Shown here: positions 2,821 to 5,800 of the stretch, one piece after another
Numbering within the stretch: the first letter of the stretch is position 1
Layout: every line of letters begins with the position of its first letter
Assembly: GCA_003133125.1 (NCBI GenBank)
Contig: PKZO01000024.1
Span: 49,116 to 95,496, forward strand
Direction of reading: 5' to 3'
Origin: Acidimicrobiaceae bacterium
Lineage (GTDB): Bacteria; Actinomycetota; Acidimicrobiia; Acidimicrobiales; RAAP-2
DNA length: 46,381 nucleotides
The notes under the pieces: model-generated
Database searches by the model: none
Seen by the model: only the letters and a program-made list of their open reading frames with translations
Told to the model about the DNA's origin: nothing
Position numbers and translations under genes: made by a program

Positions 2821-5800
2821 GGCTGAACCTCAATACCTATGGTGCCCCACGGGTCCGAATAAGAGATGGTCGTGGTCACCGATGAAGAGGCGGCCGTAGT
2901 ACCACCCAGGTAATAGGCGTACGAAACGAGCCCGGGGTTGGGGTTCGTGAAGGTCTCAATCGGAGTAAGCGCGGTATAGCCAGTAGGCGTGGTGTACGTA
3001 GGCGTGCCGCCGTTGGGGAAGTTCGCGGTGCCAAAGAGAACCTCGGAGCTATCAGATCCCGGCGTCGCACCCAGTTTGAACACGGGGCCCGTCGAGTTAC
3101 CGGAGTTGTACGCGCTATTGGTAAGTACCACGCTGGCGTCCCCGGTCACCGAGACAATCTGGATCGTGCCCCTGGTAAACGTGCCAGTGCCCGTGAAATT
3201 GGCGGTGATAACACCCGCGGTACCCGTGGCGACCGCCGAATAGGCACAATCAAGGAAACTACCGCTCGACGTATTCCAGGCGGACGTGGTCCCAATCGCG
3301 GTGAAAGTGCCCAAAGACGCACCACTTGGAGCCGCGCAGGTACGAGTGGTGGCACTCGCCTGGTAGCTCACGAATACCAGCACCGGCGTCCCGCTCGTCG
3401 CGGAAAAGCTTGCTGTCGCCAGGCTCCCCGTGCCCGTATTGCCGGCGATCTGCGTGAACCCGAGCGTGACGACCGTAATCACCTGTTGGACCTGGGTTGC
3501 GCCGTTGTAGTCAACATTTCCAGCCTGGTTGGCGTCGATACGGCAAGTCCCGGCCGCGGTGAAGGTCACGACGCTACCCGCGAGGGAGCAGCCGGTGCTG
3601 GACCCGTCCAGCGTGAAGGCGACGGTGAGGCCCGAGCTGGAGGTGGCGGTGATCGTATAGGTGGGCCCGCCCGAGCGCGCCCTGGTTGGCGCACTTGACG
3701 TGATGGTGATGGTCTGAGCGATCTTGTTGATCGTGATATTGACCGGCGAGCCCGACGTGGCGGCGTAGTTGCCCCCGGCGGTCGCCGTCGCGGTGATGGT
3801 ACAGGTGCCCTTGGTCAGCATGGTCACGTTGGTGCCCGAAACCGTGCACACAGTGCCCGTGGAGCTCGCGAAGGTCACCGTCGTGCCCGCCGAGTCCGAG
3901 GCGGTGCCCAATGGGAAGGTCCCCGCCCCACCCACGACCCAGGTTTGGGTCCCCGGCGGGGTCCAAGTGATGGTCTGGCTGGCTCCGTTGATCGTGATAT
4001 TGACCGGCGAGCCCGACGTGGCGGCGTAGTTGCCCCCGGCGGTCGCCGTCGCGGTGATAGTACAGGTGCCCGCGGTCAGCATGGTCACGTTGGTGCCCGA
4101 AACCGTGCACACAGTGCCCGTGGAGCTCGCGAAGGTCACCGTCGTGCCCGCCGTGTCCGAGGCCGTGCCCAATGGGAAGGTCCCCGCCCCACCCACGACC
4201 CAGGTTTGGGTCCCCGGCGGGGTCCAGGTGATGGTCTGGACTCCTGGATTTATGGTGATATTGACCGGACTTCCAGTGGTGAGCAGGTAACTACCCCCGG
4301 CGGGTGCCGTCGCGGTGATGGTACAGGTTCCCGGTAGCAACATCGTGACGGTTGTGCCAGAAACCGTGCACACAGTGCCCGTGGAGCTTGCGAACGTCAC
4401 GGTCGTTCCAGCCGAGTCCGAGGCGGTGAGCGTGAACGTCCCCGTCCCGCCCGTGGTCCAGGTCTCAGACGCCGGCGGGTTCCAGTTGATGGTCTGGGAC
4501 GCCGCGTTGATCGTTATATTTTCCGCGAATCCAGTCGTTGCAAGGTAATTCCCGCCCGCGGGCTCGCTCGGTGTGATCGTGCAGGTCCCCGCCGCCACCA
4601 TCGTCACGGTGGTGCCAGAAACCGTGCAAACACCGGTCGTCGAACTCGAGAAGGTCGGCTGAGTACCCGCCGAATCCGTCACCAAGGCCAAGGAGAAGGT
4701 GCCAGTCCCTCCCGGTACCCAGTTTTCACTCGCCAAATTGCTCCAGGTGAACGTCTGATTCGTCGGATTTATGGTGATATTGACCGGGGTACCTGGCGTA
4801 CTCGCGTAAGTACCCCCCGCGCTCGCCGTGGGCGTGATGGTGCAAGTTCCGATCGCAACTGTGGTGACCAGGTTGCCGTTGACCGTGCACACGGTGGGCG
4901 TGGAACTGGCGAAAGTGACGGTCGTGCTGCCCGTGTCAGTGGCGCTACCCAGCGAGAACACGCCCTCCACGTAGCCGGTGTTCGAATTGCCCGATTGATC
5001 AGTGAAAACGGTCGTGCCAGTGGCGTCAGTGAGCGGCCAGTACGAGACGGGAGAATAAGTCTGTATCTGGGTCGATTCCGCTGCGGTCGTGGCGGCCCCG
5101 TACAGGGCCGTCACGTTGGCCTGGCTCAGCTGTGTGGTGTACAGCGCCGCCTGGGCCAATGAACCCTGGAAGTAGTCCGAAACGTTAGCGTCGGGCCAGC
5201 CAAGCATTTGGGCGTAGCCAAGGTGCCAGTACATGGGGTAGTTCTGGCCCGCAGTGGCATTCACGTTCGAGGCGACAAGGGCGCCGTCGACGTAGAGGAA
5301 CTCACCCGCCAGACCATACGTCGCCACAATTTGATGCCAAGTGCCGTCGTCGTAGACACCCGGAGAAGACACCTCGTCCAGGGCACCACTGTTGTCGTTG
5401 ATCGCCCAGACGAGGTGACCTGCTTGGTCAATCCACAGATTTCGGTCCCAGTGGGTCACCGTGACGCTGGACTGCTCAGTGGTGCCACCCGCAATCGCTC
5501 CGGGAGTGGAGGTCTTGAACCAGAGGGAAGTTGAGAACGCCGTTGGGTTGTTGAAAGGATTCTTAGTGTATATAGAAGAGCCACCGGTACCAGCGAAACT
5601 CGCCGACGTACCGCCGAGCGGTCCAGAGCCACCCAGTGTCACCCCACTCGAACCCGAACCCCAAGTCTGAGTCCCCGGTGCGCTCCAGGTGATGGCCTGA
5701 TTCTTGCCCACGACTGTGAAAGAGGCGCTGTTCGAGGAGATGCCTTCGGCGGAGGCGGTTACGTTCACTGGGCCGAGCGTGTTTCCCGTCAGTGTCTCGC

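Follow-up and report, generated by a model that had tools for sequence, protein, structure and literature searches.

Circular permutation is a well-known phenomenon; permutation by duplication is normally inferred from end products. Concanavalin A is permuted after translation, whereas the permutation of the protein described here is genetically encoded. Members of the concanavalin A-like fold are known to show permutation, and under the duplication model tandem intermediates are to be expected (PMC3320104). The LamG domain has been described as a jelly roll whose two-strand N-terminal extension lies beside the last strand (PMC12051499), and type I and type II C2 domains, which belong to another fold family, exhibit a similar move, in that permutation has carried a strand of their beta-sandwich from the N-terminal to the C-terminal end (PMC12051499).

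Here a LamG module is analyzed that sits within a giant protein of the pilus operon of a peat-soil actinobacterium, in a stretch of DNA of 46,381 nucleotides (termed the window). This module very probably is a natural circularly permuted LamG domain--that is, a permuted concanavalin A-like jelly roll--inserted whole into a loop of an Ig-like repeat within a prepilin-like protein encoded beside type IV pilus genes (Table 1). It comprises 227 aa (host residues 924-1150; window positions 4962-5642, minus strand). A preliminary description, made from the sequence, had given exactly these coordinates, and all of the motifs it cited are present in the order quoted. Within the module the N-terminal element (YWPL...SGNxNTG) is placed after the C-terminal helix.

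Table 1. Features of the host gene and of the adjacent pilus genes, in window positions
Feature	Position	Strand	Basis or remark
Host ORF, 1864 aa	2817..8411	minus	giant surface protein, prepilin-like, containing Ig-like repeats and a single LamG
Prepilin methylation motif (GDTLIEVLVSLTVLG..), N-terminal	8259..8330	minus	weak Pfam match
Big_1-like domain, immediately upstream of the interrupted Ig repeat	5712..5936	minus	Pfam, sub-cut-off
Interrupted Ig-like repeat, N-terminal part (NQAITWSAPGTQTWGSGSSG)	5643..5702	minus	aligns with four intact repeats and with intact L177
LamG core, from VTLGGSGPLGG to the end of the C-terminal helix	5085..5642	minus	profile positions 30-211; PF13385; AlphaFold2
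N-terminal LamG segment (AAESTQIQTYSPVSYWPLTD..DQSGNSNTGYVEG), relocated to the C-terminal end	4962..5084	minus	profile positions 2-26 after the core
YWPL motif, relocated putative closing strand	5031..5042	minus	motif reading, AlphaFold2
Interrupted Ig-like repeat, C-terminal part (VFSLGSATDTGSTTVTF..NITINP)	4764..4961	minus	alignment to intact repeats
Four uninterrupted repeats of this Ig-like type (internal controls)	3723..4760	minus	4503-4760, 4245-4499, 3984-4241, 3723-3980
Upstream same-strand pilus genes, whole block	8524..13324	minus	Pfam T2SSE+MshEN, T2SSF, N_methyl
PilB-like ATPase	11435-13324	minus	Pfam T2SSE+MshEN
PilC/T2SSF protein	10188-11663	minus	Pfam T2SSF
Prepilin neighbour ORF	8524-10191	minus	N_methyl above Pfam cut-off

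The host protein is termed prepilin-like because its N_methyl motif (PF07963, host residues 28-51) scores 16.3 bits (E 0.0072), below the Pfam cut-off of 21.2, even though pilus genes are adjacent; an NCBIfam search of the host protein returned no match. The giant prepilin-like protein is present in 45 of the 99 genomes of the genus, and its C-terminal half contains highly variable repeat modules (for example, those of L170, L171, L173 and L175). On the plus strand, at 13671-16438, the window encodes unrelated neighbours: a luciferase-like monooxygenase, a DUF429 protein and a lysylphosphatidylglycerol synthase TM region.

Membership of the module in the LamG family is indicated by PF13385 (Laminin_G_3), which matches module residues 22-177 at profile positions 5-150/151 with 51-57 bits (the curated cut-off being 27.6); the likeness consists of this core match together with the jelly-roll fold that is shared by LamG, PAPP-A LamG and pentraxins. 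In ordinary members of the family an N-terminal extension precedes the Pfam core, whereas in the module that extension comes after the core. Because the PF13385 model starts past the relocated element, however, Pfam annotation alone cannot reveal the permutation. A first, wider profile was therefore built from 50 LamG units of actinobacteria in which the N-terminal YWRL element is included, a few of them from the window's own clade. The native module matches this profile twice, at positions 30-211 (150.0 bits) and then at positions 2-26 (9.7 bits), whereas the rotated module yields a single match at positions 2-211 with 173.5 bits (a gain of 23.5 over the native order). When 200 shuffled tails were instead placed in front, the mean score was 152.4 bits and the maximum 157.4, the best gain being about 7 bits. 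With a second, stricter profile (47 units, from which the window's clade was removed and in which the N-terminal flank is longer), the native module scores 142.6 bits and the rotated module 169.0 bits; the best rotation cut is at module residue 186, and the relocated segment amounts to about 41 of the 227 aa. Judged by these matches, the order of the elements is swapped: both blocks occur once, the second part of the profile is matched before the first, rotation restores one match, and the ordinary LamG order, with YWRL before the core, is absent. The preliminary description had proposed an alignment to a duplicated LamG HMM, as well as a permuted LamG with its breakpoint at ..YVEG/VTLGG.., and both the permutation and the breakpoint are upheld.

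The same architecture is found in 4 of the 99 genus genomes searched, including the window's own, the other three being separately binned Acidimicrobiaceae species. These orthologues (L046/L037, L047/L020 and L048/L038), which belong to MAGs that were obtained from bog and palsa and carry the label Acidimicrobiaceae, are 61-68% identical over the module, and the profile and rotation outcomes for all three are as for the window module. When genome and viral contigs were scanned with single sequences, no relative was retrieved, whereas an alignment-based scan did retrieve relatives; the viral matches obtained with the alignment query are distant (22-40% identity).

By alignment, the LamG module interrupts one Ig-like repeat, as had also been proposed in the preliminary description. 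The two halves of the repeat (host residues 904-923 and 1151-1216) flank the module; they align with four uninterrupted repeats of the same protein and, in L177/G029--a homologue of the host protein that lacks LamG and in which the Ig repeat is uninterrupted at the LamG site--they rejoin with zero alignment gap at the join. The nesting rests on sequence, because the Ig halves are poorly modelled by AlphaFold2 (pLDDT mostly below 50); the alignment given to AlphaFold2 left out the intact Ig repeats, whose first strand MAFFT had misplaced.

The LamG core is modelled with block pLDDT values of mostly 78-98. Two short strands are predicted in the relocated piece: SYW (residues 220-222, block pLDDT 96 and 77) and GYV (pLDDT about 63 around it). 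A Foldseek search with this model retrieves LamG, PAPP-A and pentraxins with probability 1.00, which identifies a LamG/concanavalin A-like jelly roll. Structure matches also include clostridial toxin receptor-binding domains at about 9-17% identity; what is shared with these is the jelly-roll fold only, which has no bearing on toxicity. On the model, a LamG sandwich with adjacent termini is the expected fold of the module. The relocation is geometrically plausible because the LamG N-terminal extension adjoins the last strand (PMC12051499): the C-terminal SYW strand would fill the place of the ordinary N-terminal YWRL strand, although its exact position is deduced rather than fixed by the model. 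Closing by SYW would, in turn, keep the termini together, so that the module could fit within an Ig loop without breaking the stalk.

Regarding origin, the preliminary description had suggested derivation from a tandem LamG array and had recommended comparing homologues for intermediates. Such arrays do occur: in the window genome two LamG units stand in tandem on contig C49 (L004), and genome G120 has a three-unit array (L039/L049), in which unit 2 is colinear with module residues 1-227 at 54% identity and unit 3 follows directly in the same frame. In other words, the module corresponds to one exact repeat period within the G120 array. (The L049 record, CAJCJA010000055.1, is titled Candidatus Saccharibacteria; the matching genome G120 is in the window's genus, and the label may be wrong.) The Acidimicrobiaceae arrays share with the module this repeat period, about 54% identity and a YWPL after each core; unlike the module, they begin with an element of the CGVQ type, carry a C-terminal domain and are not set within an Ig repeat. 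In a maximum-likelihood tree of the LamG cores alone, with the motif left out, the four permuted modules group with unit 2 of the array in the window genome and with G120 units 2-3 (support 100/97). By colinearity and by this tree the permuted modules are related to the tandem LamG arrays, which are presumed intermediates of the kind predicted by the duplication model (PMC3320104).

The preliminary description went further in suggesting that the module may arise by partial deletion; because the homologue has an empty Ig site, however, it is more likely that a single repeat period was inserted than that an array was partly deleted on the spot. One full repeat period, from an EG/TVTxG joint to the next such joint, would have been copied from a LamG array and would have landed in the G/TFxLG joint of an Ig repeat. 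At both DNA junctions only short shared motifs (of the GGC ACC type) are seen, which are insufficient to name a recombination mechanism.

The C-terminal position of YWPL is not a product of the event that made this protein, given that relatives in the clade already have it: in these YWPL follows the core and is absent or degenerate in front. Counted with a strict pattern that leaves out the AWDF of PKD domains, 44 of 52 ordinary proteins have the W-motif ahead of their first core; of the 15 CG-type arrays of the window's clade, 1 has it ahead of the first core and 12 have it behind the last. On inspection, the three arrays without a final motif (L056, L061 and L088) prove to be interrupted at that point, either by a change of frame or because the contig ends. 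Nearly all of the 44 cores of the clade are followed by the motif, several of the exceptions being cut or degenerate, and in the core tree these 44 are set apart from a second group, of 22 rows, which for the most part are ordinary LamG. Closure from the C-terminus thus appears to be a property of the whole LamG clade and, because of this, the permutation appears to have begun before the insertion. The Ig-inserted form adds a second shift, by which SGNxNTGxxEG is also at the C-terminus; only the four Ig-inserted proteins have this second breakpoint and are nested. It seems reasonably likely that a C-terminal W-strand is the native closure throughout the clade and that all stages of permutation coexist in it: arrays, single domains (whose N-terminal copy is degenerate and whose C-terminal copy is intact) and the fully permuted, Ig-nested module. 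A point against reading the module as a permuted LamG is that the body of L058, a single-domain relative, groups with ordinary LamG in the core tree.

Two side observations concern individual relatives. The pilin-fused LamG of L058 (641-1348; the record is that of L044) looks like a mosaic, its ends being similar to those of the C-terminally closed clade and its middle grouping with L023-type LamG in the tree. In L051 (ORF from 5044, core at about 445-617) a LamG with C-terminal YWPL lies between CPTPTFCLASG / TSWNNVS-type repeats and is perhaps a second case of insertion, again into a protein built of repeats.

An alternative is that C-terminal closure is ancestral in the clade (or in a wider, pentraxin-like group) and that the YWRL-first order is derived, in which case the window protein is differently cut rather than permuted from its own ancestor. 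The prevalence of the motif after the cores of the clade fits this, as does the presence of pentraxins (CRP, SAP, PTX3 and neuronal pentraxin) among the best solved-structure matches; in pentraxins the last helix is followed by a strand that contains a tryptophan. The direction of change within the clade depends on rooting, and the core tree is unrooted. Nevertheless, this alternative is rather unlikely: the clade is narrow (mostly Acidimicrobiales and related MAGs) whereas the wider actinobacterial family is YWRL-first, and a profile of the C-terminal part, run against the PDB to test the link to pentraxins, found no match.

It is improbable that the module is instead an ordinary LamG core from which the N-terminal element was lost, its C-terminal YWPL...EG being a functionless remnant of the next array unit. 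A truncated array would leave such a tail, inasmuch as YWPL also precedes the following unit in arrays, and the tail alone scores low (the 9.7 bits given above). Yet purifying selection acts on the tail much as it does on the core: dN/dS values are 0.19-0.25 in the relocated piece, using only pairs with unsaturated dS, and 0.12-0.24 pairwise over the whole region, all of them rough because many synonymous sites are near saturation; YWPL itself is invariant across the four species. Moreover, single pilin-fused LamG domains retain ..SYWPLDGP or FWPLDGGAG at their extreme C-terminus with no further unit behind it, and for one of these relatives, L058, AlphaFold2 (mean pLDDT 92) gives a confident C-terminal SYW strand (residues 229-231, block pLDDT 97 and 81), whereas its degenerate N-terminal LQPL is weak (pLDDT 47-78). 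Finally, although the genome is a draft of 90 contigs, a chimeric assembly or misassembly within the metagenome bin is refuted because three other, separately binned Acidimicrobiaceae species share the identical architecture at 61-68% identity.

The permuted LamG module probably serves in ligand binding (in a lectin-like or adhesive manner) and would be displayed on a pilus-associated stalk, judging by its family and gene context only. Full-text searches of the open-access literature turned up no permuted LamG. Pfam-style annotation of LamG hides permutations of this sort, the model beginning past the element that has moved. Since the presumed intermediates coexist in one genus, the steps of the permutation are directly testable by structure and stability.
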